A model generated the notes under the pieces. The model ran no database searches and had not been told where the DNA came from. It was given only the letters and a program-made list of their open reading frames with translations. Positions 2,194 to 56,565 of a DNA stretch of 64,000 nt are shown here, one piece after another. The stretch covers positions 97,748,249 through 97,812,248 of the forward strand of contig OX352762.1 in assembly GCA_947095585.1 (NCBI GenBank). Direction: 5' to 3'. Numbering within the stretch: the stretch's first letter is position 1; each line of letters starts with the position of its first letter. A program made the translations under genes and the position numbers. Origin of the DNA: Nephrocerus scutellatus. Taxonomy: Eukaryota; Arthropoda; Insecta; Diptera; Pipunculidae.

Positions 2194-3268
2194 ATTTTTT
2201 TTATAATGTACACACGCTAAAGGGGTTTACACCCTTATAATGCTTAGCACAGCGTGGGTGTTCGAAAATTAAGGAGAGGAAAAGGTGATATGTCTATGCG
2301 GAGTCGGGCAATTCATTCCACATAACTATTGTGCGGCTAAAGTACGAATCTCTGAATTGGTTGGAACGTCCGAAGATAGGTCTAATGGTGGACCCGTGAG
2401 CTCGAGTTGAGGCACGGGTATTTCGGTTTGGTTGGAGGATGGGCGGTATGCATAGATATTTCCTTTGAACACCGCTTATGGAAAAAGCGATAAAACAGTG
2501 ACAAGCATGAAACTTTCCTACGATGTTCAAGCGATTCGATTGTTTTCGTCACCAATAAGTTTTATCGCACGGTTCTGAATTATGTCGAGTAGATGCAATG
2601 TGGTCTTGGGAGCACCTGCCCAGACAATACAGTTGTATTCAAGTTTATGGCGAATATATGCCTTGTAAATAGTAGCCAGATCTATAGGAGTGAAGTACAT
2701 CTTGTAACGTTTAAGAAAACCTTAACATTTTGCAGCATTCTTAGCGATGGCGAATATGTGGTCTTCCAACGAAGATTGTTGTTGGCGCACATACCGAGTA
2801 TTGCAAGTTTTTCAGTTTCTTTGATCCAGGATACATTCATGGATAAAGGTTCGGGGTTTAAATTACGTTTAGAGGATAGAAGACAGCATTGGATTTTGGA
2901 AGCGTTAAGTTGAAATCTATTGCGTAGTCCCCACCTTGTTATTCTGTTAAGGTCAGAATTTAATGTGCTTAACATACGTTCTTGTTCAAGTTCCTCTTGT
3001 GATGAGGAGGGGCGTGGAGAGAGCTCGAACTTGTATGAAAAGCTTAGAGTGCTGTCGTCAGCGAAAGAATGAATCGGATTAGAACTAGCGAATAGGAGAT
3101 CATTAATGAAAATGAGAAAGAGTGTCGGAGATAAAACAGAGCCCTGTGGAACACCGGCGTTTATGCGTTGAACACTGGATTTGAAACCATCCAATACAAC
3201 CTAAATTGAACGGTTAGAAAGGTAGTTACTAGTCCAAACAAGCAGGGTCTTCTTAATTTCATAGGCAT
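2194..3268 (-). pseudogene. CR1-like non-LTR retrotransposon, copy A (RT 3' half)
   Basis: The minus strand encodes the RT core GVPQGSVLSPTLFLIFINDL with the catalytic box SFADDSTLSFSY (near 3060-3150), a thumb-like region, and a C-terminal block RPIFGRSNQFRDSYFSRTI near 2350. The 3' UTR ends at 2194 in a short TTATAAAAAA-type terminus shared with copies B, D, E, F and I. It is 5'-truncated at about 3268 and frameshifted after the ADD box. Clade assignment (CR1/L2 group of the Jockey superfamily) rests on the lack of RNase H, the RT motif style and the C-terminal block; RT phylogeny would settle it. Dead copy. Confidence 0.85.
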
Positions 3269-13171: not shown

Positions 13172-14095
13172 CATTCTAATGCTGTGAGTTGACGGTCTAG
13201 TACGTTTTTGTGGAAGACTTTTCGGAGGCAGGTCTTGAGGAGTGTTCTTATGTGATCTTGAGGGGAGTGTTGTGGGGGTCAGGGAGTCTTGAGGTGGTCT
13301 TGAGTGGATCTTAAGGTGGTGTTAACACGGTCTTATATGTCATTCTAATGCTGTGAATTGATAGTCTTCTACGCGTTTTTGTGAAAGACTTTGCGGAAGC
13401 GGATCTTGACAAGTGTTCTTATGAGCAGTAATAACAGGGTCATAAGTATGATCTGGAGGGGGATTTAAGGCGGTTTTAAAGGCGTCTTGAGATAGCGGAG
13501 AAAAGGTATTGAGCGGGCTCTTGAGAGGAGTCTTGAGGGGGCTTTGAGAGGGTCTTGAGTGGGGTTTTGAGGATTTTGGCTGTGGTCTTCAGAGTGTCTT
13601 GTAGTGGTCTTGATGGAGTATTAAGGTGGTCCTGAGAGAGTTTTCAGGTGGTCTTGAGGGGGGTTCTAAGGAAGTTCTTTGAGGGGTCTTGAGAGTTTTC
13701 AGTGGGTCTTCAGAGGGGTATTGAGGCAGTCTTAAGATTGTATTTAGGTAGCATTTATGGAGCCTTAATATGGTCTTGAGGGGTTTTCAGGATTGGGTGT
13801 TGAGATGGTCTTAAGGGATGTCTTACAGGAATTTTGAGTTAGGTTTAAGAGGGGTCTTCAGGGGGTTTTGGGAGAGTTTTTGGTGGGATTTTGAGGGGGT
13901 ATTAACGTACTCTTGAGGGGGGTCTTCAGACGGGATATAAAGATAATCTCGAAGAGGTTTTGAGAGGGGTTTTGAGTAAGTTTTGAGAGGGTCGTCTTTA
14001 ATGGGGTCTTAAACTGGCATCGACGGAGTCTTAAGGTCTCTTGTGTGTCTTGAGATGGATTTTAGGAGTTATTTTTGGTGCCCTTTTGAGGTTTC
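13172..14095. repeat. G/T-rich degenerate minisatellite (GGTCTTGAGG-type)
   Basis: About 900 bp in which variants of ggtcttgaggggg recur dozens of times at irregular 12-35 bp spacing, giving strong strand asymmetry (G and T on the plus strand). Near its start are two copies of a longer block, cattctaatgctgtgagttg at 13172 and cattctaatgctgtgaattg at 13340, each followed by the same ~80-bp context. No open reading frame runs through it. It lies directly against CR1-like copy C. Confidence 0.8.
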
Positions 14096-14202
14096 CATAT
14101 TACCATCCCATCTTCATGTTACTGTATTAATATATACATATTTCATTAAAAACTGAAAAGTATAAAATAAAACAATACTAAAAAAACTTTATTATGTAGT
14201 GA

Positions 14203-15197
14203 TTAACATTGGTTGTTGTTCAAGTTCCACTTGCGACGAGGAGAAGCGTGCAGAAAGCGTGAAATAATATGAAAAGCTAAGAATGCTGTCGTCAGCAAAA
14301 GAATGGATTGTATTAGAAGTGGTGGATAGGAGATTTTTAATGAAAATCAGAAAGAGTGTCGGAGATAAAACAGAGCCTTGGGGAACACCGGCGTTTATGC
14401 GGTGAACATTGGATTGAAATTTGTCCAATACGACCTGGTTTGAATGGTCACAAAGGTAGTTACTAGTCCAATCGAACAGGGCCGTATTAATGATATATGC
14501 ATTCATTTTCGACAAAAGAGCTTGATGCCAGACTCTGTCGAATCCCTTGGAAATATCGAGTGCAAAAACTTTGCTTTCACCAAATATGTGAATAGACTGA
14601 TTCCACTTTTTAGTGAGATAAGCCATCAAGTCACCTGTAAAACGTTGCCTACGAAAACCGTACTGCTGGTCCCTAAGGATTTCACGTGATTCAAGGTATT
14701 GCATAAGCTAACGATTAATCAGCGTTTCCATGACCTTGGAAAGCATAGCTGTTAGCGCAATGGGTCGGTACAAGGAAAGAGATGACAGATTAGGAACAGA
14801 CTGGATAAAGGCTGTTTTCCAATTCCTTGTAACGACTCCAGAAGAATAAGAGATATGAAAAAGTCTGCGCAGTGGTAATGCCAACGTTGAAGAACACCTC
14901 TTCAAAACTATAGCGGGATTGGCATTAGGCCCAGAATGTTGAATCTGTTGAATGTTGAGATCATTTAATGATCTGGCCACTAGACGAGTACGAAAGTAAA
15001 TCTGTCCCATAGAGGATTCAACTCATGCGGCGACAACGCGCTATCTGGTAGTGTAGAGCTAGCTGCGAAATGTGAAGCAAGCAGATTGGCCTTGTCTACA
15101 GAGCTGACAGTTGGAATGTCATTGTGAATCAGCGTTGGAATTGAAGACGAGGCAGTATTTTTAATTCGTTTCACGAACGTCCCAAAGGAAGTAATTT
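14203..15197 (-). pseudogene. CR1-like non-LTR retrotransposon, copy C (linker plus RT)
   Basis: From 5' to 3' on the minus strand: linker with SSSIPTLIHNDIPTVSSVDK (near 15120), a finger region KTAFIQSVPNLSSLSLYRPI, then QQYGFRRQRFTGDLMAYLTK, LDISKGFDRVWHQALLSKM (motif A Asp present), GVPQGSVLSPTLFLIF and SFADDSILSFSY (catalytic ADD present). It stops near 14203 before the thumb, so both ends are truncated. The 5' edge at about 15197 joins mariner transposase sequence in the same strand and frame. Stops and frameshifts interrupt it. Confidence 0.88.
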
Positions 15198-24099: not shown

Positions 24100-25624
24100 G
24101 CAGACAGTTTACTTTCGTACTTGTCAAGTGTCTAAAGTATTACATGATCTCAACATTCATAAGTCAGCTCGGCCTGATGGTATTCCCGTTATAGTTTTGA
24201 AGAGGCCTTCTTCAACGTTGGCATTGCCACTGCCTAGGCTTTTCCATTTCTCTTATTCTTCTGCAGTCGTCACAAGGAATTTGAAAACAGCCTTTATCCA
24301 GCCTGTTTCTAAAAAAAGGCGAACGGTCATCTCTTTCCTCGTACCGACCAATTTCGCTAACATCCATACTTTCTAAGGACATGGAAACGCTGATCAATCG
24401 TAAGTTTATGCAATACCTTGAACCAAGTGAAATCCATAGCGACCGGCGTTAGCGGTGGAACCAGTCTATTCACCAATTTGGTAAAAGCAAAGTTGTTGCA
24501 CTCAATATTTTCAAGGCATTTGACAGAGGCTGGCATCAAGCTCTTTTGTCTAAAATGAATGCCTATGAAATTGATAACACCCTTGGACTAGTAACTACCT
24601 TTCTGGACGGTTTCAAACCCAATGTTCCCCGCATAAACGCCGTTGTTCCTTTGTTTTGTCTCCGACATTCTTTCTGATTTTCATTCATGATCTCTTATCC
24701 GCCACTTCTAATCCAATCCATTCTTTCGCTGACGACAGCACTCTTAGGTTTTCATATGATTTCACGCCTTCTGCACGCCCGTCTTCGTCGCAAGTGGAAT
24801 TTGAACAGCAACGTATGTTAAGCACGTTAAATTCTGACCTCTACAGCATAACAAGTAAGGGAATACATAATAAAGTTGAATTTAACGTTTCCAAAACTCA
24901 GTGCTGTCTTCTGTCATCCAAGCGTTATTTAAACCCCCAACCTTTATCCATGAATGGATCTTGCATCGAAGAAACTGAAAAACTCTCGGTAAATCTCGGT
25001 ATGTGAGTCAACAAAAAGCTTCGTTGGAACGACCACATATTTACCATCTCATGCTGCAAAATATTTAGGTTTCCTAAAACGCTGCAAGATGTACTTCACT
25101 CCTTCAGATTGGCTTCTATTTACAAGGCATTTATATTCGCCCTAAACTTGAATACAACTGTATTGTCTGGATAATTGCCCCAAAGACCACATTGTATCTT
25201 CTAGACAGAATTCAGAACCGCGCGATAAAACTTATTGTTGACGTTAATATCGCTAACACAATCGAGTCGCTTGAACATCGTAGGAATGTTTCCTGCTTGT
25301 CACTGTTTTATCGCTTTTTCCACAAGCGGTGTTCAGATGCATCCCGCCCATTGTTGAACCCATCCGTAATACCCGTGCCTCAACTCGAGCACACGATTAG
25401 GCCTATCTTCGGATGTAGTAACCAATTCAGAGATTCCTTCTTTAGCCGCACTATAGTTATGTGGAATGGATTGCCTGATTCGGTGTTTCCGCATTTGTAT
25501 GATCTGCAGTCATTTAAAACACGCGTGCATAGACATCTCATATTTTCCTCTCCCTAATTTCCTAATGCCCACGCTGTGCTTGACATAATAGGGGTGCCTT
25601 TAACGTTTACACATTATAAAAAAA
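24100..25624 (+). pseudogene. CR1-like non-LTR retrotransposon, copy D (RT through 3' end)
   Basis: Plus-strand RT beginning with QTVYFRTCQVSKVLHDLNIH and RPDGIPVIVLKR, then finger motifs, an eroded motif A (LNIFKAFDRGWHQAL), PTFFLIFIHDL and SFADDSTLRFSY at 24656-24760 (ADD intact), the thumb, and an uninterrupted 121-codon C-terminal segment at 25192-25557 ending RVHRHLIFSSP. The 3' UTR ends in ttataaaaaaa at 25624. The 5' end is truncated within the RT N-terminal region. Several stops separate the blocks, so it is inactive. It has the best preserved C-terminus of the family. Confidence 0.9.
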
Positions 25625-32555: not shown

Positions 32556-34300
32556 CTATATATATATATATATATATATACGCTGGTGCGTATGTATGTC
32601 TAACTATCACGGTTGAACCACTGAAGCTTTCCAACTTATACTCACATCATATGTTCGTGTGGTGATCCGGATTGTTTTTGTTTGTGTTAGACCCCCCTAT
32701 GTGGCGCTGTTGACGCTTTTTTCGTAAATTCTTATTTATGAACCGATTTGCCTCAAATTCACACCTTATAATATTTAAATAAAAAGAAAATCGTTGGCAA
32801 AATTTGGATCCGATAGGTGGCGCTGGGGTGGAGAATGTAGTGTCCCCTGTATACTTTTTTTATAATGTACACACCCTCAAGGGATTTAAATCCTTATAAT
32901 GCTTAGCGCAGCGTGGGCGTTCGATACGTGTGTCTAAAATGACTGCAGATCAAACAAATGCGGAAACACAGAGTCGGGCAATTCATTCCACATATAGTTA
33001 TTGTGCGGCTAAAGAAGGAATCTCTGCATTGGATGGTCAGCCGAAGATAGGTCTAATCGTAGACCCGTAAGCTCGAGTTGAGGCACGGGTATTTCGGTTG
33101 GTTTGGAGGATGGGCGGGATGCATCTGGATATTTCTTTTGAGCACCGCTTATGGAAAAAGCGATAAAACAGTGACAGTGACAGTTTTCGCGATATTTACG
33201 CCACCAATAAGTTTTATCGCGCGGTTTAGAATTCTGTCAAGTAGATGCAATGTGGTCTTGGGAGCACCTTTCCAGACAATACAGTTGTATTCAAGTTTAG
33301 AGCGAAATAGTAGCCAAGTACGAGGGAGTGAAGTGCGTCTTGCACCGTTTCGCATCATTCTTAGCAATGGCGAATATGTGGTCGTTCCAACGAAGCTGTT
33401 GACGCACATACCGAGTATTGCGATCCATTCATGGATAAAGGTTGGCGGTTTAATTTACGCTTAGAACGACAGAAGACAGCATTAGGTTTTTAAAACGTTA
33501 AATTCAACTCTGTTGTGTAGTCCCCACCTTGTTATGCTCTTAAGGTCAGAGCTTAACGTGCTTAACATACGTTGTGATTCAAGTTCCACTTGGGATGTAG
33601 ATGGGCGTGGAGAGAGCGCAAACTCATATATGAAGCTAAGAGTGCTGTCGTCAGCAAAAGAATGAATCAGATTAGAAGTAGCGGATAGGAGATCTTTAAT
33701 GAAAATGAGAAAGATTGTCGAAGACAAAACAGAGCCTTGGGGAACACCGGCGTTTATGCGGTTGACATTGGATTTGAAACCGTCCAATATGACCCGGATT
33801 GAACGGTCAGAAAGGTAGTTACTAGTCCAAACAAGCAGGGTCTTATTAATTCCATAGGCATTAATTTTCGACAAAAGAGCTTGATGCCAGACTCTGTCAA
33901 ATGCCTTGGAAATATTGAGTGCAACAACTTTGCTTTTACCAAATTTGTGAATAGACTGGATCCACTTTTTATTGAGATAAGCCATCAGGTCACCTGTAGA
34001 ACGTTGCCTACGAAAACCGTACTGCTGGTCGCTAAGGATTTTACGTGATTCAAGTTATTGCATAAGCTTACGATTGATCAGCGCTTCCATAACCTTCGAT
34101 TCTATAGTTTTATGGGTTGGTGAGGTGGTCAGTTGGTGGGTTGGTTAGTTGGCGGGAGGTCATAGGGCGGGAGGTCTGTGGGTGAGTGTGGTTTGTAGGT
34201 CTGGCACCTCAGCTGTCGCGAGGTCATAGGGCAACAGGTCAGTGGTCAGTTAAGGCATCCGGGAAACGCCGGGTACTTCCACTAGTGTATATATATTACT
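32556..34300 (-). mobile_element. 'TAGCTGACCC' dispersed element, split by a CR1-like insertion
   Basis: Left part 32556-32853 and right part 34097-34300 align, in reverse complement, with the unbroken copy at 58539-59117: tggcgctggggtggag with cctgtata on the left, and cgattctatagtttt, ttggtgag and ccgggaaacgccg on the right. CR1-like copy E occupies 32854-34096. The right part carries extra G/T-rich sequence (about 34115-34250). It is therefore an older element interrupted by a retrotransposon. Confidence 0.75.
32854..34096 (-). pseudogene. CR1-like non-LTR retrotransposon, copy E
   Basis: The 3' terminus (ttttttataatgtacacacc, from 32854) matches copy A. The coding strand shows ALNISKAFDRVWHQALLSKI (motif A intact), NYLSDRSIRVILDGF, GVPQGSVLSSTIFLIF and SFADDSTLSFIY (ADD intact) in a 167-codon run at 33482-33985, then thumb and C-terminal remnants to about 33000. 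It is 5'-truncated at 34096. Frameshifts and a deletion in the thumb inactivate it. The RT core is the least damaged of the family here. Confidence 0.88.
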
Positions 34301-35150: not shown

Positions 35151-36364
35151 TACATAGGGTGCCGTAAATGTTTTTAGAAAATGGTAATACTAGTGTTTTT
35201 CAATGCAAATCTCTTTGTCAGTCGAAAGTTAGAAGTTATGTTTCTCAAAAGTAATCTGTCAGTTCACATTGTTTTTTATTTACTTGAAAAATTGAATTCC
35301 GTGAAAAAATTGTATTATCAACAACAGTGCTTCGAATCACTTCATTCGACTTTTGGCGTCGAAGCACCATCCTTGGCTAGTGTTTATAATGGGTACAATT
35401 AAACGCGAACGACGTTCATTCAAAGACGAGCCTCGTGAAGGTCGTCCAAAAACAGCTGTTGTGCCAGAAAACATCGATCCTGTGAGAAAACTGATTAAAG
35501 AGGATCGTCATGTAACTTATCGGGAAATCGAGGCATGCCTAGGCATTAGTAACACCAGCGTATATACGATCATACATGAACATTTAAAAGTGCGGAAGCT
35601 ATGTGTAGGTGTACGTTGGATTCCACATTTTTTGACAGACGCACAAAAAAAGGTTCGTGTCGATTCGTGCCGCCAAATGCTTGAAAAATTCGTTGAAGGT
35701 ACTTCCAAAAACGTATACAAGATCGTGACAGGTGACGAGTCATGGATATTTGCTTATGAGCCGAAAAGAAACGGGCAATCAACTGTTTGGGGGTTCCAAT
35801 TCGAAGAAAATTCAACAAAAGTTGTGCGAAATCGGAGCGTTGGGAAGCAAATGGGCGTATTTCTTCACGAAAACCAGTCATGTGGCTACTGTGGCTCTTT
35901 AAAATCCAAAGGCAGTAAATTCAGCTTGGTATACGACCATTTGTTTGGCTAAGGTTTTCTACAAAACGACGAATCATTTTGCATAACGATAATGCAAGCT
36001 CACACACATCACATCAAACAAGCGAGTATTTAAGCACTCAAACGATCGAATTGATGGGTCATCCTCCTTACAGCCCCGACTTGGCACCCAATGACTTCTT
36101 CCTGTTTACAACAATCAAAGATAAGATTCGTGGACAACGCTTTTTATCGCCTGAATAAGCGGTTGAATTGAAGCGTTCAAAAACCATGTTTTGGAGCTAT
36201 CAACCTCGGACTGGAAAAAGTGTTTCGATAAATGGTTTGAGCGTTAGCAAAAGTGTAAAGATCTTCAAGGCGAATATTTTGAAAAGCAACAAAGCCACTT
36301 TTGGTGAAAAATTTTAATTTTTTTTTTATTACTTTTACTTAAAACTTTTACGGCACCCTTCGTA
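35151..36364 (+). mobile_element. Full-length mariner transposon with TA TSD
   Basis: Element 35153-36362 (1210 bp) flanked by TA at 35151-35152 and 36363-36364. Termini are inverted: left catagggtgccgtaaatg; right, read inward, cgaagggtgccgtaaaag. The length is close to the usual 1.3 kb of mariners. It encodes a degenerate transposase described separately. It is nested in an RTE-like fragment. Confidence 0.93.
35265..36300 (+). pseudogene. Mariner transposase, broken
   Basis: N-terminal helix-turn-helix region with QQQCFESLHSTFGVEAPSLA (35320-35380), a short deletion/frameshift at about 35400, then a continuous 35353-35952 frame with RRSFKDEPREGRPKTAVVPE and the first catalytic Asp in IVTGDESWIFAYEPKR (near 35730). 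After another frameshift come HNDNASSHTSHQT (second Asp, near 35980) and PPYSPDLAPNDFFLF (third Asp, near 36090), spaced as DD34D. All three Asp residues persist, but at least two frameshifts and a stop near 36157 inactivate it. Confidence 0.93.
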
Positions 36365-38144: not shown

Positions 38145-40600
38145 TTCTTCTTTCTTTATGTCCTATATCCCCTTGTGGGTCTTAGGGCCTCTACTACGCC
38201 TACGCGCCATCGCGTGCGGGTTCTGACAATGAGCTTCAGCTCTCTCCAACTCTTCCCCAATTGCCGTGACTCCTCCTCAAGTGTTCTGCGCCATATATTT
38301 CTCGGATGACCCGTTCTTCCACCATCCTGAGACAACGGACTGCATTGCTTAGTTTGCTTTGGAACTGTCGCCTTTTCGGAGTGTATGACCAATCCACTGC
38401 CACTTCCGTCGTTGGATGGTTGTGCCTATTGGTTCCTGACCTGTTCTCTGGTAAATATGTTCGTTAGAGATACGGTTAGGCCAGAAAACCCTTAAGATGT
38501 TCCGTAGGCACCTCTTTACAAACATTTGTAATCTTTTTGTGATAGTAGCGGTCACTTTGCAAGTACTGCACCCATAAAACAGCACAGATTCAACATCTGA
38601 ACGGAACAGTGCAGCTGGGTGTTTAAGCTGATCGCATTGCTTCGCCATATTATGGACATCATTCCAAACCCTGATTTGGCTTTGCCGTTTTGGTTGACAA
38701 TGTCCTGTTCGGTTCCACCTTCGGTCGAGACAATACTTCCAAGATATTGGAAACTCTCTGCTTTCTCTACCGGTCGTCCAGCAAAGTTAACTTGACTTAC
38801 TGAGTTATTGCCAAAGTTGATGATAATGGTTTTGGCATTATTAATCTTCAAATCTGCAACATTTGCCTCCCTTTCTCCATTTGTTGTCATTTGGTGCAGC
38901 TCCATAATCCTGTGTGAGAGTAAACAAACATCGACAGCGTAGTCCAGATGTTTGAGTAGATATGTAAGTGTCCAACGAATTCCTCCGTTTCCAGTAGATA
39001 AAGCTGCGCGAAGCACATAGCTAATCACCAATAAAAAGAGTATCGGCGATAGAATGCAACCTTGTCGTACCCCACTTAGGATCACGAATTCCTCTTACAG
39101 TTTTCCTCTATGCAGCACATGACATTTAGATCCATCACAGGTTGCTTTAATAATAGCTATTAGTTTATCGGGTATACCTCTCCTGCGCAAGGTGAGCCAG
39201 ATAAACTCTCTGTTGACACTGTCAAACGCCTTCTCAAAATCGATGAACAGCGGGTGCAGTGGTGACCGGAATTCAACGCACTGTTCAATAATGATCCGCA
39301 GGGTGTTGATGTGGTCTACATAGGAGGATCCAGTGCATGGGCAGCATGGGGTGCATATCGTTGGCGAATATACGGTTAAGGACCGTAGGGAAATGCATCT
39401 GAAACGAGTACGGCACCATCTAGGCCTTTCACCGGATGCTGGCTAGAGCGGTGACCACCTCATCTCATTGGTGATTCTGTAAACGGTTCTGCTATCTCTT
39501 GCTAGCTGCTTCCTCTGCTTCTGAGGCCAGGTTGTTAATATAATTACGTTTGTCACGTCTTACACTTCGCTGCACTTCTCTCATTTTGCTTCAATACAGG
39601 GATTCTAGCTCGATCCTCGCTGTTGCTGGGGTATCTACAATTCGAGCTTTAAGTAGCTTACGCTCTTCAATACGCCTCCAGGTATCTTCGGTAAGCTACG
39701 TGCTGTGCCTTGCCTGGCTTCTTCCAACGATACTTTCCGCTTCAGATGTGAAAACATTTTTCACACCCTTCCAATGTTCTTGGATGATTGTCGGCAGTGA
39801 GCTGCTGATTGCATCCACTCCTTGCGATAAATGATCCCTTAGTTGTTGGCGGGGGGGGGGTGAGGGGATCTTTAGCCGGTCGATGTTATACCTAGGCATT
39901 CGGATGATATTGCGGATTCTTTGAACTGATGCAGTACGTAACTGGACAGTAGCTACAATAAGCTGATGACCATGTACCATACCCATGTCGGCTCCTCGTC
40001 TGCTCCTAAAACGTCGACTGATCGCCACAGGGTTGATTTGGTTGGATGATGATTGACTGTCAGTTGACACTGTGGCAGTCAACTGACCTCAAACATGGTG
40101 CCTACTATGACAAGGTGGTTGGTGTTGCAGAAAATAACATTTGTCATTTCGTTCGCCGAGGTCGTGCTTCTCAACTACATGTCTGAGTCCTTCGTTGTCG
40201 TTGCCTACCTTGGCATTCAAGTCCCCCATAACGATAACAATTGCTGTTCGGCGTTTGAATACAGCGCTTAGCTGATTGTAGAAGTTGTCCTTCTTTATCC
40301 TCAGTCGAGGGATTCGTTGGGGCCCACTCGAGATCCACGGGGACTGCCGGAGGGTTTGCCGGAGTAGAGTAGAACAGTGTTACACGTTTGGGATTGGTAC
40401 TCTCCAGCGTTGAACCATCTTACTTCACTCACTCCAAGTATGTCCAAATTATATCGAAGAAACTCACGTTCCAGTTGAAGAAATCTGGTATTTTGAGGTC
40501 CTTAACTCCTTAGTCTTAGATATTAGTCCGACAATAGCCAAAAGTCGTTATTATTCGATCATTACTTATCCGAGGCGTTGTGCCGGTTTCAGTAGGGTGC
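38145..40600 (-). pseudogene. RTE-like non-LTR retrotransposon (family A), nearly full length
   Basis: Minus strand, 5' to 3': endonuclease remnant with MGDLNAKVGNDNEG-type sequence near 40200; an EN C-terminal region where NQIN replaces NQID and the SDHH box is lost (39990-40040); a linker (39700-39990); RT motif A IDFEKAFDSVNREFIW near 39220; one in-frame stop near 39095; GVRQGCILSPILFLL (39075); catalytic box YAVD in place of YADD near 38940; and a C-terminal domain ending RKWQWIGHTLRKGD, GRTGHPRNIWRRTLEEES and RTRTRWRVGVVEALRPTRGY (38160-38480). The 3' end is near 38145. Damage is limited to a few stops, frameshifts and lost catalytic residues. Confidence 0.88.
39849..39858 (+). repeat. 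Poly-G run
   Basis: Ten consecutive G on the plus strand within the linker of the family-A element. It shifts the reading frame and may also be an assembly or sequencing weak point. Confidence 0.8.
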
Positions 40601-41548: not shown

Positions 41549-43850
41549 TTTTTTTTTATAATTTGCGCACGCGAAAAGGGGTTCTCACCCTAATAATGCT
41601 CGGCTATATGCTTGGCACAGCGAGGGCGTTAAGGAAAAGGAGGAGAAAAGAGAGATGTCTATGAGCTAGTGTCTTGAATGAATCATAGTGATGTGGAAAG
41701 ACAGAGCTTGGCTAAGTATTCCACATACGTGTTGTACGGCTGAAGAACGAATCCCTGAACTTTACTGAACGCCCGAAGATGGGCTTAAGGGTAAACTGAT
41801 GAGCATTTAGAGCGCCACGAGTATTGCGGTTGAATTAAAGGAGAGGTGGCATGCAACTGGCTATTTCTCTTGAGCACCGCTGGTAGAAGAAACGATAAAA
41901 CAGTGAGAGGCAGGAAACGTTCCTGCGGTGTTCGAGCGAATCTTTGATTTCGCTATATTTGCGTCACCGATAAGTTTTATCACGCTGATGCAAAGTAGTT
42001 TTAGGCGCACCAGACCAGATATGGCAATTGTACTCAAGTTTAGGGGGAATAAAAGCCTTGTAGATAGTAGCCAGATCAGAGGGAGTGAAATATTTCTTGC
42101 ACCGGGTTAGAAAACCTAAACATTTCACAGCATTTTTGGCGACGGTAAAAAAAATCAACGAAGCTTGTCGTTAACGCACATACCGAGAATTGCGAGATTT
42201 TCAGTTTCTTTTATGCAAGTGACATTCATGGATAATGGCATGGGATTTAGGATTCGCTTAGACGACAGGAGACGGCATTGGGTCTTGGAAGCGTTAAATT
42301 CTACTCGATTCCTTTCTTCCCATTGTATTATGCTGTCTAGGTCAGAATTGAACGTGCTTAACATACGAAGTTGTTTGAGTTCTACATGCGAAATAGAGGG
42401 AAGATCCTCAAACTTATATGAGAAGCTGAGAGTGCTGTCGTCAGCGAAAGAGTGAATTGGATTAGAAGTCACAGATAAGAGATCATTTATAAAAATAAGA
42501 AATAGTGTCGGGGACAAAACAGAGATCTGGGAAAAGTAATGAACTTAAGACTTGAAACCGTCCAATAGAACTTGAATTGAGCGGTCCAAAAGATAGCTTC
42601 TAGTCCAATGAAGCAGTTTATCATCGACTCCATAAGCACGCATTTTGGACAAAAGAGCTTGATGCCAAACTCTGTCAAATGCCTTAGAAATATTGAGCAA
42701 ATACCTTGAATTCTTGAGCTGAAAATTTATCAGCGTTTCCATGACCTTGGAAAGAATGAATGTAAGTGCATTGGGTCGGTACGAAGAAGGAGACGACGGC
42801 TCGCCATTTTGGGTATGCGCTGGAAAAAGGCTTTTTTTTCAACTTCTCGGGAAGAGACCAGAAGAATAGGAAAGATGGAAAAGCTTACGCGATGGTAATG
42901 AACACCTCTTCAGAGCTAATGGTGAAATACCATATGGCCCAGCGGATTTGTGAATGTTGAGATCGTTTAAAACTCTAGCAACTGCACGAGTACGAATGAA
43001 TATCTGTCAAATAGAGTGTTCAATGTTCCGAGGTGCATACGGCAGCAATGCACAATCTGGACGCGTGGAGTTAGCTGCAAACTGCGCAGCAAACAGATTG
43101 GCCTTGTCTATAGAGCTGACAACTGGAATGTCATTATAAATGAGCGTTGGAATCGACGACGAGGCTGGATTTTTGATTTTGATGATATTTTTGATGACCA
43201 AAAATGTTTACTACCTTTGGGACATTGTAGTTTTTTTGCCTCAATTTTTGGTCGTAGGCGAATTTGACTTGCCGAAGATGGGCAATCATTTATGGCTCCT
43301 GGTTTATGTTAGTGAACGTATCAGAAATAACATCCACGCCACTTTTGGCATAAGGTGGCCAGATAATACTCCTAAGCAAAAAGTTGAGGACATCCAAGTC
43401 GGCTTTTACGTGCAGCCATACTTTTCTTTAAGGAGTTTTCTCTTAAACTGCGTGGTTCGACAACGAGAAATTAGCTGATACTACAAAATGGTTTGTAGAG
43501 CCTAGAGGTCATAAAACACTGACGGTGTTTTTGCTGGGAATAGTGATAGAAACAAGTCAAGTGTATAAGCGTTATGACTCACAATGTCTGGAATTCGAGT
43601 GAATGAGCCTTCACAAGCTGAGTGAGATTGTTTAACTCCGCAAATAACTAAACATCCATTCCTTGTGTGTTGTTAAGCCTGAATCGTGAAGCCGACTAGA
43701 ATTGTGTACATTAAAATCGCCCGCAATGACGATTTCAAAATGTGGATCATGTCATAAAATTCTATAAATAGAGTCAGACAGCGCATCTAACTCATTACAA
43801 GTTGAGTAACTAAGAAGAAGTCCCTGAATAATTATATTCAGAATTTTCCC
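41549..43850 (-). pseudogene. CR1-like non-LTR retrotransposon, copy F (longest; endonuclease remnant to 3' end)
   Basis: The 3' terminus at 41549 (tttttttataatttgcgcac) matches copy B. Minus-strand blocks: C-terminal region, thumb (LEYNCHIWSGAPKTTLHQRD near 42000), SFADDSTLSFSYKF near 42430, a motif A region LNISKAFDRVWHQALLSKM near 42650, finger region to 42900, linker ASSSIPTLIYNDIPVVSSID near 43130, and an endonuclease piece EIVIAGDFNVHNSSRL near 43700. The GDFN box marks an APE-type endonuclease. The copy is interrupted by deletions (for example around 42530-42700) and stops. It shows that the family has EN and RT and no RNase H. Confidence 0.88.
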
Positions 43851-44749: not shown

Positions 44750-47700
44750 ACTTGAAAATAAAAACGCCCGCCAAACCGCAATACTGTTTACATAGTAGTA
44801 GTAGTAAACTGACTATTTATTTTCTTAAAAATATACATATAATTACCGCCGCCTACCAGATTGAGTCGAATATCTTTGAGAATTGGACAAATGGCAAGGA
44901 AATGGAATACATCTTCTCTTGTGTTCAGGTTGCACATGTTGCAGAGAATTGGTTAATCTTGGCGGTGTGGTATATAATTTAAGTCTACCAGCTCTCCTAT
45001 CATTTTAAATATTGTGCTTATTTTTTCGGTTTAGTTGCAGTTTAGAAAATAAGTACTTTCTCGAAAGTAATATCTTAATTTACTATAGTACATCCTGTAC
45101 TGGGATGATTGGTCTTCATTAGCATAGTTGAGTGTTAAATTTGCTTCTAATCAACGCAGGCTGCATATCTGATGTGATGTTCAATCGCATGCCACATTCG
45201 GATGCACGATTCTGCCATTCACTCACGTAATTATCTCTCTTTGTTAAAATTATGTATCAGCACAATTTTCGGCAACCTTTTTTCATCCACTGATATTACT
45301 TTGACAATATAGTCAACGTGTAATTTCAAGGTTTCTAAAAACATAGGTGGTGTCGCAGTTTCTAAATGCAACATGTAATTTGGCGTACTAGTCGGCAATC
45401 GAAATATTCGCTTCAGAAAATATCGGAGGAATTTCTCCACTGCTGATAAAGATTCGTATCCCCAAACTTGGGCTGTATATAAGAGTACTGATGTTGCAGT
45501 TGCGCGAAAAAGTTTTTGTTTTGAGATATCAGAGATAAATTTATTTGTAATGCAAGAGTCCCCAGACCGAAGACTCTGCTCGCTTAGCCTCAGATAGTTT
45601 CGACTCCAAGTGCATATTCATATATAAATTGCTTGAAATTTGAACTCCTATTTATTTGTATTTGCGTACATTTTCAATAGCCTCGCCGAGATATGTCCAT
45701 TCTATTGAGTCTATTCATCTCTAGTTGCATACCATTTACCGTATCCGCAAGAAAGACAATGTCATCCGCATTCATAAGTGCGGGGATTTTATTTTCGCAG
45801 ATATCTATTCCTCCCTTACTTCATCATTTATATCGTTTATAAACAGTATAAATAGTAGTGCACTCAGTATAAACCCTTGCTTCACCCCAATTGATGTTGT
45901 AAATTCCTCAGATATCGATATACCATCCCATACATACGCTCTATTATTTTCGTTATTCATCTCTAGTTGCATACAATTTACCGTATCCGCAAGAAAGACA
46001 ATGTCATCCGCATTCATAAGTGCGCGGATTTTCGTTTCGCAGATATCTATTCCTCCCTTACTTCATCATTTATATCGTTTATAAACAGTATAAATAGTAG
46101 TGCACTCAGTATAAACCCTTGCTTCACCCCAATTGATGTTGTAAATTCCTCAGATATCGATATACCATCCCATACATACGCTCTATTATTTTCGTTATTC
46201 ATCTCTAGTTGCATACCATTTACCGTATCCGCAAGAAAGACAATGTCATCCGCATTCATAAGTGCGCGGATTTTCGTTTCGCAGATATCTATTCCTCCCT
46301 TACTTCATCATTTATATCGTTTATAAACAGTATAAATAGTAGTGCACTCAGTATAAACCCTTGCTTCACCCCAATTGATGTTGTAAATTCCTCAGATATC
46401 GATATACCATCCCATACATACGCTCTATTATTTTCGTTATTCATCTCTAGTTGCATACAATTTACCGTATCCGCAAGAAAGACAATGTCATCCGCATTCA
46501 TAAGTGCGCGGATTTTCGTTTCGCAGATATCTATTCCTCCCTTACTTCATCATTTATATCGTTTATAAACAGTATAAATAGTAGTGCACTCAGTATAAAC
46601 CCTTGCTTCACCCCAATTGATGTTGTAAATTCCTCAGATATCGATATACCATCCCATACATACGCTCTATTATTTTCGTTATTCATCTCTAGTTGCATAC
46701 AATTTACCGTATCCGCAAGAAAGACAATGTCATCCGCATTCATAAGTGCGCGGATTTTCGTTTCGCAGATATCTATTCCTCCCTTACTTCATCATTTATA
46801 TCGTTTATAAACAGTATAAATAGTAGTGCACTCAGTATAAACCCTTGCTTCACCCCAATTGATGTTGTAAATTCCTCAGATATCGATATACCATCCCATA
46901 CATACGCTCTATTATTTTCGTTATTCATCTCTAGTTGCATACCATTTACCGTATCCGCAAGAAAGACAATGTCATCCGCATTCATAAGTGCGCGGATTTT
47001 CGTTTCGCAGATATCTATTCCTCCCTTACTTCATCATTTATATCGTTTATAAACAGTATAAATAGTAGTGCACTCAGTATAAACCCTTGTTTCACCCCAA
47101 TTGATGTTGTAAATTCCTCAGATATCGATATACCATCCCATACATACGCTCTATTATTTTCGTTATTCATCTCTAGTTGCATACCATTTACCGTATCCGC
47201 AAGAAAGACAATGTCATCCGCATTCATAAGTGCGCGGATTTTCGTTTCGCAGATATCTATTCCTCCCTTACTTCATCATTTATATCGTTTATAAACAGTA
47301 TAAATAGTAGTGCACTCAGTATAAACCCTTGCTTCACCCCAATTGATGTTGTAAATTCCTCAGATATCGATATACCATCCCATACATACGCTCTATTATT
47401 TTCGTTATTCATCTCTAGTTGCATACCATTTACCGTATCCGCAAGAAAGACAATGTCATCCGCATTCATAAGTGCGCGGATTTTCGTTTCGCAGATATCT
47501 ATTCCTCCCTTACTTCATCATTTATATCGTTTATAAACAGTATAAATAGTAGTGCACTCAGTATAAACCCTTGTTTCACCCCAATTGATGTTGTAAATTC
47601 CTCAGATATCGATATACCATCCCATACATACGCTCTATTATTTTCGTTATTCATCTCTAGTTGCATACCATTTACCGTATCCGCAAGAAAGACAATGTCA

Positions 47701-49620
47701 TCCGCATTCATAAGTGCGCGGATTTTCGTTTCGCAGATATCTATTCCTCCCTTACTTCATCATTTATATCGTTTATAAACAGTATAAATAGTAGTGCACT
47801 CAGTATAAACCCTTGCTTCACCCCAATTGATGTTGTAAATTCCTCAGATATCGATATACCATCCCATACATACGCTCTATTATTTTCGTTATTCATCTCT
47901 AGTTGCATACAATTTACCGTATCCGCAAGAAAGACAATGTCATCCGCATTCATAAGTGCGCGGATTTTCGTTTCGCAGATATCTATTCCTCCCTTACTTC
48001 ATCATTTATATCGTTTATAAACAGTATAAATAGTAGTGCACTCAGTATAAACCCTTTGCTTCACCCCAATTGATGTTGTAAATTCCTCAGATATCGATAT
48101 ACCATCCCATACATACGCTCTATTATTTTCGTTATTCATCTCTAGTTGCATACCATTTACCGTATCCGCAAGAAAGACAATGTCATCCGCATTCATAAGT
48201 GCGCGGATTTTCGTTTCGCAGATATCTATTCCTCCCTTACTTCATCATTTATATCGTTTATAAACAGTATAAATAGTAGTGCACTCAGTATAAACCCTTG
48301 CTTCACCCCAATTGATGTTGTAAATTCCTCAGATATCGATATACCATCCTATACATACGCTCTATTATTTTCGTTATTCATCTCTAGTTGCATACCATTT
48401 ACCGTATCCGCAAGAAAGACAATGTCATCCGCATTCATAAGTGCGGGGATTTTCGTTTCGCAGATATCTATTCCTCTCTTACTTCATCATTTATATCGTT
48501 TATAAACAGTATTAATAGTAGTGCACTCAGTATAAACCCTTGCTTCACCCCAATTGATCTTGTAAATTCCTCAGATATCGATATACCATCCCATTCATAC
48601 GCTCTATTATTTTCGATATCGTTAGTGGAATAGTTTTCTCTAAAAACTGCTTAAAATTCTAATAAATAAATTGAATTCTCGATTACTACCGCCGTACTTC
48701 TTGCGATGTAAATGGTGCGTCCAAAAACTCATTCGTAATAAACGGCGCTGCGTAATGAAATGAAAAATGAGAAGAGAAGAGCTAAGGGTTGTGTTTAAAA
48801 GGTTGCTAAAATGTTCTTTTAGTAGTGGAGCATTTAACATGCTGCCAATTGTGCTTGTTTGCCCGTTTATGTACTTCACTGCTCTCCAAAACTCTGCAGA
48901 TGATTTTGACTCGTTCACTACAGCAATCTTTTGTTGTTCATAAGCTACCTTTTTTGCATAGCAAAGACTTTTAGAATCTCTATATGCTTCTCCGTAGAGA
49001 GATTTGAGAATGTTGGTCTTATGTGCTCTAAATAACTTTAAAAAGCAAACGAGTTGGCTCTAGCCTTAACACATTCTTTGTCAAACCATTTTTGCTTGTA
49101 GGAACTTTTGATTATTGATGGGTTGTATGTCGGAACTCCATTTTTAATTACATTTCTTAGTGTATCAATATTTAACAGAGTATTTGCAACAAATAAACAC
49201 TCTAGATTAACATTCATGTTAGTCTGGAAGTTATTGCGCATTCTTTCGTTTCAAACCAATTTCGGTAATAATCCCAGTTGTGTGAAAGGGTCACCATTTG
49301 GCGAATGCTACAATGCATTTAATTACAAGAGGCATGTGATCCGAAAAATGCTCGGCACCTACACGAAAGTTGTTTCCAACTTCCAGAAATGAGGCAGTAG
49401 TCCATTACAGAAGAGGGTAACCCACGAATAAAAGTAAACTCGCCGGTAAAATCAACTACACAGCTTCCATTTAAAATATTACAATCGAATACATCCGCCA
49501 GCTCAAGGATCTTTATACCCTTGTTGTCACAAACCTCGTCTTTTGACTTGCGATTCATATGTACAACTGATGAATTACTTTCGCTTATCATTTCCGTTAG
49601 CCTGTCGTAGTCGTGTTGCC
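44750..49620 (-). pseudogene. Non-LTR retrotransposon hosting a tandem RT-core array
   Basis: Minus strand, 5' to 3': endonuclease C-terminus with FTFIRGLPSSVMDYCLISGS (49400-49440); linker KQKWFDKECVKARANSFA (49050-49090) and SSAEFWRAVKYINGQTSTIG (48840-48910); RT core replaced by a 12-unit array (45712-48615); then thumb and C-terminus with EKFLRYFLKRIFRLPTST (45390-45440), NYMLHLETATPP, EWQNRASECGMRLNIT (about 45200) and a terminal zinc-knuckle-like LCNMCNLNTREDVFHFLAIC (44880-44950; C-x2-C-x7-H-x4-C). It is 5'-truncated at about 49620. Clade uncertain; the sequence differs from the CR1-like and RTE-like families here. Without the array it would be about 2 kb. Confidence 0.85.
45712..48615 (-). 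repeat. 12-unit, 242-bp tandem array of a reverse-transcriptase core
   Basis: Units start at 45712 and every 242 bp to 47890, then 48133 and 48375 after a one-base insertion near 48054. Each unit encodes, on the minus strand, YVWDGISISEEFTTSIGVKQ, LLFILFINDINDEV and the catalytic NADDIVFLADTVN (RT motifs B to C). Units are nearly identical: internal ones differ at only a few sites. The period is not a multiple of three (242 = 3x80+2), so the frame changes at each unit and no continuous protein results; the open frames on either strand are by-products. The outermost units carry most private differences. Confidence 0.97.
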
Positions 49621-50578
49621 AGTGGCTGCCATAGAGATAAATAGGGACTATACATAACTAAGTAATACAGGAGAGCGCCACATCAGTATAATGGTGTTCA
49701 AGTAATAGCATCAATCAATACTTCTGCCACTACACTATAATGACACATCACAGGATAATTATCTTTTGTCTATCCAATAAGAAAACCCCAACCACTCTTA
49801 AGTTTACCTCTCTGGTTTTCAAACAGAGGCCTGCTTGTCCGCGAGGAGCAGCGTTGTGGTATCTAAGTTTCGATATTATTTGACATGATCAAAAATGTTT
49901 GACTACGCCATACCTACACATACTGCACAGTGTTCACGTCACTCATTAGAAATCACTTTAAATTGGCTTCTCAATAATCTACAGCTCATTACAAAGTCCA
50001 AGCGCCTCGATAAGATAAGCGAATGTGTAAAATATCTGTAAGACACTTCTTATCCCCAGAGAAGTGCACAATTGTTGCACCAGATAAACACAAGCACCTG
50101 CTGCTGATAATTATGATGATGGCAAACTGACCACGATCTGGATTGCTAGCGTAATTCCATTGAGATTTCGTTTTTAGCTTAGACGAACCGTTGGCGGTGG
50201 CAAATCATATGGTAACAGGACAGCCGAACAAACGAACCACATCGATCGTTGCAGTTTTTAACTTTGATTTGAATTGTTCACTAGCTTGCTGGCATACACT
50301 TGCAGAATAATTGTAAGGAGTTTAGATGTATTGGCAAAACCTGTTGATCATAAGTTTGATGCGATCATGTTTGAAAATCGCTTGCATCCGGTCGATGAAC
50401 ACGAAGCTCTAAATAGATAATAAGGCATCGCATAACACATGATTATGATGTCAGTTATAGGTAGCACACCTTGTAACGTCTTGTAGAAGGTTCATGAGTG
50501 TACAATTTGATGTACAATTTAATTTTAACGCCTGTGCTAATAATTATAGCGTACTTTAAACACTGATAATCGCTCCAC
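49621..50578. other. Spacer, no gene recognised
   Basis: About 1 kb with no coding region or repeat boundary that I can support. Confidence 0.5.
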
Positions 50579-55289: not shown

Positions 55290-56565
55290 TTCGACTTCAA
55301 TAACTAACTAACAATAACAATAACACGGCATTACGAAAACATTCGTAGATCTCATCGTTATTGAGTCTCCGGAATCCTCCTTTCTCACATACGGGGCTAA
55401 CAATTCTCCACAAGAATTTTCTCTGGAACGCAGCTAAGAATGCTTTTGCTAAGCACACAAGTCTCGGATCCATATGCAAGTACGAGTATGACCATTATCT
55501 TGTGAACCAGCAGCTTGGATGTTATGGTTAGATTCCTTGATTAGAAGAGTCTTGTTAATTTATTATGGATGCCGAATTCTCTCATAGCTTTATAAAGTTC
55601 TATTTTGGCTATGCTATCATAGGCGGTCTACGGGTGAAAATCTGAGCAGTTGTTGATTTGCCTGGGATAAAGCCACACTGGTACGGGCCAATGATGTCTT
55701 TAGATATCTCTTGAAGGATAGTGGAGAAAATCTTATATGCGGTACTCAACAACGTCATACCACGATAATTTATGAACGTTGTGATATCTCCCTTCTTATA
55801 TATGGGGCAGAGGATGTCTCTTCGCCAGTCTGCAGCCATCGCTCCTTCTTCCCATTCTTGCACTATTAGTCCATAAATTGTTTGGTAAAGTGCGGGACCT
55901 CCTGATTTAATCAGCTCCACTGGATACCAGCTTGTCCTTGCAGTATATGCAACGCGGTGTATGTGGCGTTATACCGCGTAGCCTTTAGTATAACTTCCGC
56001 GTCTGGTGCGATCATCGCTCTCTGTACTGTTTTAGTATACAGACAAGATTATTTTCCCATGCGGCTTTCTTTCGCCGGTGATTTGTTTTTTCTTCTGAGC
56101 TTTTTATATTATTTTTCACGTTCCCACTTTTTATGAGATTGTTGCAGTGCTCTGTACGGAACATTCTTACGTTCAGTCATCGAACCAGTCGTACCGAACT
56201 CTACGACTACTGCCTAGGATGGAGTGCAGTACTAATGACAGTATTTTTAAGGGGTGTTCATTTTTTTCTACACCCGACATCTTTTGCTAGAAAGCCAACC
56301 AAGAGCACATGATGTCTTGCATCATAGCCGTAATATATTCCTGGATTGCTGTTGGTTTATCATTATATTGGGACAGGGTATTGTCGTACTGCTGGTGTAG
56401 GTCGAGCTCTATACAGTTAGCGTACTTTCCATAAGAAAATTCGCAAATGGTTTAGCCGTTTTCGTCGTTCATCACTGTACCCGAGGCTGATTTGGGGTTC
56501 CGTAAAGTTTTTTTATACGGGCCCTCATTGGCCTCACACCAACCTTACTTAGTTTTAAAGAACGT
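55290..56565 (-). pseudogene. RTE-like non-LTR retrotransposon (family B), copy at 55-56.5 kb
   Basis: The 5' end at about 56563 matches 51110. Only scraps of endonuclease remain (56280-56540). Linker homologous to 52100-52320 lies at 55990-56280. The RT finger runs MELIKSGGPALYQTIYGLIV, GDITTFINYRGMTLLSTAYK and GPYQCGFIPGKSTTAQIF (55920-55620), uninterrupted for 103 codons. The palm with its catalytic box is deleted (near 55600), and the C-terminal part (55290-55560) follows. It complements the 51-kb copy, which lacks the RT finger and palm. Confidence 0.85.

Follow-up and report, generated by a model that had tools for sequence, protein, structure and literature searches.

How does a piece of the reverse transcriptase (RT) coding sequence of a LINE come to stand twelve times in a row within one copy of that element, and is such an array a satellite in the making? 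The question is raised by a locus in the fly Nephrocerus scutellatus, for which a first-pass annotation, made from the letters alone, had proposed a newborn satellite. The locus lies in a stretch of 64,000 nucleotides (C2:97748249-97812248; from here: the window) of an assembly of 613 Mb in 9 contigs, which was searched as a whole.

In the 64-kb window, Tandem Repeats Finder (TRF) returned positions 45712-48619 with a period of 242, 12.0 copies, 99% matches and a score of 5695, and the 13 other rows reached scores of at most 86. With unit 3 as the BLAST query, 12 matches of 97.9-100% identity were obtained head to tail, starting at 45712, 45954, 46196, 46438, 46680, 46922, 47164, 47406, 47648, 47890, 48133 and 48375. 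According to BLAST, ten units are 242 bp long, while unit 10 (47890) has 243 bp and unit 12 has 241 bp. Both programs agree on the twelve nearly identical units that had been annotated, and the array is far beyond chance.

45712..48615, minus strand: array of 12 head-to-tail units (TRF score 5695 and BLAST)

Small minisatellites built around GGTCTTGAGAGG, their units 11-23 bp long, were also detected by TRF at window positions 13263-13658.

The array is embedded in a 5′-truncated, fly-like LINE, and scars of three deletions were called in this host copy by BLAST against fetched sister copies.

About 44793..49652, minus strand: host LINE copy with the array and three deletions inside (BLAST to 18 sister copies)
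45702..45705: first scar, 96 bp lost (sister L013 1397-1492), at a distance of 6-10 bp from the left array edge
48615..48622: second scar, 182 bp lost (sister L013 1740-1921), bordering directly on the right edge of the array
48667..48675: scar of a third deletion of about 267 bp, about 45 bp beyond the right one (sister L013 1966-2232 absent)

The 3′ end of the host copy is found near 44793, with (TAG)n on the plus strand, and TAG repeats occur at the 3′ end in 9 of the 14 other copies compared; on the 5′ side the last similarity to the sisters is near 49652. BLAST identities of the host copy to its 18 closest sisters were 84.9-89.2% for the left flank, 90.0-90.8% for the unit and 72.9-93.1% for the best piece of the right flank, while sister L013 was 93.6-99.1% identical to the 17 others (aligned pieces of at least 142 bp). 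Both flanks continue the same LINE, and the unit corresponds to the stretch of its RVT_1 domain from motif B to motif C, encoded on the minus strand. The array therefore derives from the RT coding sequence of the element that surrounds it and lies within a copy of that element, as had been proposed. The further claim, that it occupies the exact place of the RT core, holds for the position of the unit, but 182 bp upstream of it and 96 bp just downstream are missing. In L013, the 182-bp piece encodes FVDFRAAFD, which we take to be RT motif A.

Further retroelement fragments are scattered over the window. A second type of LINE with the motif FADDS is represented by five fragments (2685-3200, 14195-14707, 33485-34054 and 42155-42544 on the minus strand, 24578-25003 on the plus strand), four of which match RVT_1, among them 42155-42544 below the cut-off. 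The RT fragments at 38552-39442 and 55609-55968, both on the minus strand, look like further LINE types; the RVT_1 cut-off was passed by 38552-39094, while 39095-39442 and 55609-55968 stayed below it. An open frame on the plus strand (35305-35949) gave a sub-threshold match to HTH_32 in Pfam and is presumably part of a mariner-type transposase.

What does the unit encode? One of its minus-strand frames reads ENNRAYVWDG...GVKQG...NDEVREE and another one GIDICETKIRALMNADDIVFLADT. Read on the minus strand, each unit does contain the two motifs annotated for it, GVKQG... and NADDIVFLADT. They fall into different frames, however, owing to the loss in 12 of 12 units of a single base that 18 of 18 close copies retain. 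When both frames were joined into one peptide, X marking the break, this peptide aligned to positions 111-164 of the 205 positions of Pfam RVT_1 with 29.5 bits and just missed the cut-off of 29.6. In the sister open frames RVT_1 spans positions 3-205 in three of the four scanned and 3-109 in the fourth. A protein search with one sister open frame yielded 409 proteins; among the best 120 of these, the named ones belong to Eupeodes corollae, Musca autumnalis and Haematobia irritans, and some combine RVT_1 with PF14529 or PF03372. The four sister frames matched RVT_1. On the plus strand, overlapping open frames of 119 aa recur with the units (window 45725-48505); they follow from the repeat, and no sign of function was seen in them.

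Maintenance of the repeats by selection, acting on a repeated protein, on an RNA structure or on a small-RNA function, would agree with the high identity of the interior units. We regard it as highly improbable, since every unit is frame-broken, the period is not divisible by three, the folding of the minus-strand RNA, examined for one unit, does not exceed that of shuffled sequences (z -0.13) and the window has no Rfam match at gathering scores. An RNA structure or Rfam family in the unit was dropped as a candidate on the same two results. The earlier judgement that selection for a repeated protein is unlikely gains from the frame break and from a Tyr-to-Asn exchange in YADD, in addition to the period on which it was based. 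The array most likely has no coding role.

Is the array a property of the LINE family or of this one copy? For each query of the assembly 40 candidates were scored, so that the counts are lower bounds and arrays in more diverged copies could be missed. The unit had at least 51 matches, 12 in the array and at least 39 elsewhere, the best outside match being 91% identical and none of the outside matches being in tandem (40 of 95 candidates scored); this search for other arrays had been suggested by the first-pass annotation. With the L013 segment as query there were likewise at least 51 matches, 12 in the array and at least 39 elsewhere, and among these 39 outside matches no tandem arrangement was found, none being less than 4 kb from another (40 of 113 candidates scored). 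A 120-bp query across the joint between two units gave at least 41 matches, 11 full-length and two half-length ones in the array, while all 28 of the 28 matches outside were one-sided, i.e. the joint was not found outside the array (40 of 99 candidates scored). This query added one copy, C4:30928926, which is absent from the unit and L013 listings.

We read 38 of the 39 copies outside the array in stretches of about 3.2-3.5 kb, leaving out C1:115784482 as well as C4:30928926, the copy added by the joint query. A single unit match is present in 37 of the 38, and in the remaining one, L050, the copy is split into two pieces that complement each other; none of the 38 holds an array of the unit. 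The array could in principle be a normal part of the LINE family that is spread by retrotransposition, comparable to the 3′UTR tandem repeats of Ogre elements, and its occurrence in every copy of the parent element had been named beforehand as the finding that would speak against a newborn satellite. With 0 of 38 copies holding it and the joint confined to this locus among the candidates scored, the probability of a family-wide array is practically negligible. The array is a single-locus tandem repeat outside the life cycle of the element, found at one genomic place among the candidates scored. We also looked for a second locus with an array and for any close relative of the host copy; no other match exceeded 91% identity to the unit (40 of 95 candidates scored). 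A search of viral contigs gave 106 pattern matches and no relative. Two pairs of copies, L025/L026 and L036/L037, have the same match values and lie 11 kb and 4.2 kb apart, respectively, which suggests local duplications of larger stretches.

The differences between the units and their sisters, and those among the units, allow the events to be put in order. All 12 units depart from the majority sequence of 18 sisters by the same 22 substitutions and one deletion. Seven of these 23 differences are private to the host copy and 16 occur in at least one other copy, in an alignment of 38 copies that is poor over part of the unit for some partial copies, L047 and L050 among them. The initial assumption that all 23 were private was dropped accordingly, and because 16 of them recur in other copies the host copy would come from an older branch of the family. 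Two of the private differences, the Tyr-to-Asn exchange and the frame break, occur in all 12 units but in none of the 38 other copies. As both are present in each unit, the source copy was evidently dead before it was multiplied.

Within the array, 11 positions vary if the last base, absent from unit 12, is left out of account.

45712..45953, minus strand: unit 1, edge unit with the ancestral G at 72 and adjacent private substitutions at 80-81 (unit comparison)
45954..48374, minus strand: ten interior units, 2-11, with the derived C at 72 (unit comparison)
48375..48615, minus strand: unit 12, edge unit with the ancestral G at 72 and four private substitutions (unit comparison)

At unit position 72, G is present in 18 of 18 sisters. 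Six of the eight changes private to one unit are in units 1 and 12, where 1.3 would be expected (binomial 0.0004; 0.002 if the adjacent pair is counted once). The array thus displays the pattern of concerted evolution known from satellites, with interior units alike and edges diverged, both at position 72 and in the private changes. From the comparison of the units, this pattern appears to be the trace of growth and exchange in the interior. The variant 22A in units 2, 4, 5 and 10 and the variant 169T in units 6 and 8 seem to reflect block-wise reshuffling.

The same variants bear on the quality of the assembly. Both the array and its copy number are read solely from the assembly, in which one or few units might have been inflated to 12. 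The variants of the units are patterned (22A, 72C or G, 169T, 218T and the changes at the edges), unlike a repeated consensus, and arrays collapse in assemblies more often than they inflate. We therefore consider a misassembly improbable and treat the array as real in the assembly.

How did the second unit arise? The sequence at the joints is informative here.

45948..45958: example of a joint between two units, TTTTCG-T-TATTC, which contains one filler base or, with one substitution tolerated, up to 3 bp of homology

The outer edges read GAGTC-TATTC on the left and TTTTCG-ATATCG on the right. Strictly, there is no homology at the joint and one base is added; if one substitution is allowed, the homology is 3 bp (TAT). 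Homology this short (0-3 bp) is compatible with end joining but not with an exchange between longer repeats. Similar duplications were found in sister copies. In L047 (C5:54475200-54478700), another copy of the LINE, TRF reported a 171-bp tandem dimer with 99% matches at 1246-1587. It belongs to the RT coding sequence and, in coding direction, closely follows the segment from which the unit of the window is made. In L022, a 31-bp tandem dimer with 100% matches is located at 2151-2214 inside the LINE copy. By eye, the homology at the joints is 0-1 bp in L047 and 2 bp in L022. These dimers look like the first step of the same process. Together, tandem duplications with units of at least 30 bp inside the element are present in at least 3 of the 39 copies read (38 plus the host), a count that includes L022 and L047 as the only sisters and omits the repeats of L038 and L041, which lie outside the element, as well as those of L030 (118 bp), L036 (122 bp) and L042 (109 bp), which lie at the element end or in unaligned stretches.

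Taken as a whole, the observations are in our view probably best explained by the in-place expansion of an RT piece within a decayed LINE. In a decayed, 5′-truncated copy, a 242-bp piece would have been duplicated in tandem by end joining, and the two head-to-tail copies would then have grown to 12 in place by unequal exchange or gene conversion between sister chromatids or homologues. The identity of the interior units would be due to recent exchange, whereas the first duplication is not brand new, given the two and four private substitutions in the edge units.

Simple end joining fails, however, to explain why there are scars about 10 bp from both array edges. The array stops at the 182-bp deletion on its right and 6-10 bp from the 96-bp deletion on its left, and the right scar at 48615..48622 contains 8 bases without counterpart at that place in L013. 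Because both edges are within about 10 bp of scars, the array and the two flanking deletions may have been made in one complex repair event, in which a 242-bp island was recopied by template switching or rolling-circle reinsertion and homogenised later. Random placements of a 242-bp segment put both edges within 10 bp of different scars in only 876 of 200000 cases, in a test that was designed post hoc, with the data already seen. The third scar about 45 bp further on marks the copy as rich in deletions, and the edge-interior pattern favours stepwise growth over a single burst. We therefore view such a repair event as a possible but rather unlikely origin, and as somewhat more doubtful still that the repair of a break in a dead retrotransposon gave rise here to a satellite seed in a single burst instead of by the slow two-step route. 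In-place expansion remains the reading that we prefer.

Is the array then a satellite? Satellites form long arrays of many kb to Mb, usually at many places or in heterochromatin, while here 12 units make up 2.9 kb at one place in the assembly, among the candidates scored. The term is too strong for one such array and should await long arrays or more places. Nor can the proposed newborn satellite be upheld as newborn, since the edge units have had time to gain their private substitutions and the interior has been reshuffled. The array is ordinary in kind and a well-preserved intermediate, from which a satellite could later grow.

Comparable repeats have been described in other genomes. A survey of the human genome assigned 7,276 of 31,472 minisatellites and satellites (23%) to transposable elements (TEs), reported 5,747 of 5,932 clusters of TE-derived tandem repeats as single-locus and 601 repeats as derived from L1 outside L1PA, and described local expansion of TE-derived repeats over time (Ahmed and Liang 2012, PMC3389668). 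In that survey, 6% were explained by slippage or by direct repeats in the flanks, and 6,817 of the 7,276 remained without assignment to any known mechanism (PMC3389668). The array resembles the human single-locus repeats in its duplication inside an individual TE copy, its single place and its local growth, and it resembles the 6,817 unassigned ones in that its edges show no direct repeat of 5-20 bp, bearing in mind that the filters of the survey (e.g. GC of at least 40%) define the human set and not this array (PMC3389668). It differs in that an insect-type LINE and 12 units are involved here, whereas most of the 6,817 consist of two units (PMC3389668).

Satellites related to LINE ORF2 are listed in a review that concludes that any part of a TE may be a satellite source (PMC9659126). 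Its examples include PROsat of Phodopus roborovskii, where L1 makes up a small region of the satellite, the L1 ORF2-derived Pvc20 of Phoca vitulina, and HinfI of chicken, which comprises the 3′UTR and part of ORF2 of CR1 (PMC9659126). As in these cases, coding sequence of LINE ORF2 provided the monomer or a part of it; they are satellites of their genomes, however, whereas we observed one 2.9-kb array within its source copy (PMC9659126). With ORF2-derived satellites and the human single-locus and L1 repeats on record (PMC9659126, PMC3389668), the earlier description of the array as unusual was overstated, and the array is another case of a known event. In Lathyrus sativus, tandem repeats in the 3′UTR of Ogre elements seed satellites (PMC7004042); a short array inside a retrotransposon as a precursor of satellite DNA is the shared feature, although there it is the 3′UTR of many elements and here the coding sequence of one dead copy (PMC7004042). 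Next to these systems, the array leaves current knowledge unchanged and is a useful example for the birth of satellites, as it presents a readable early stage in which the source copy, the joint, the edge units and the single-copy and dimer relatives are found together in one assembly.
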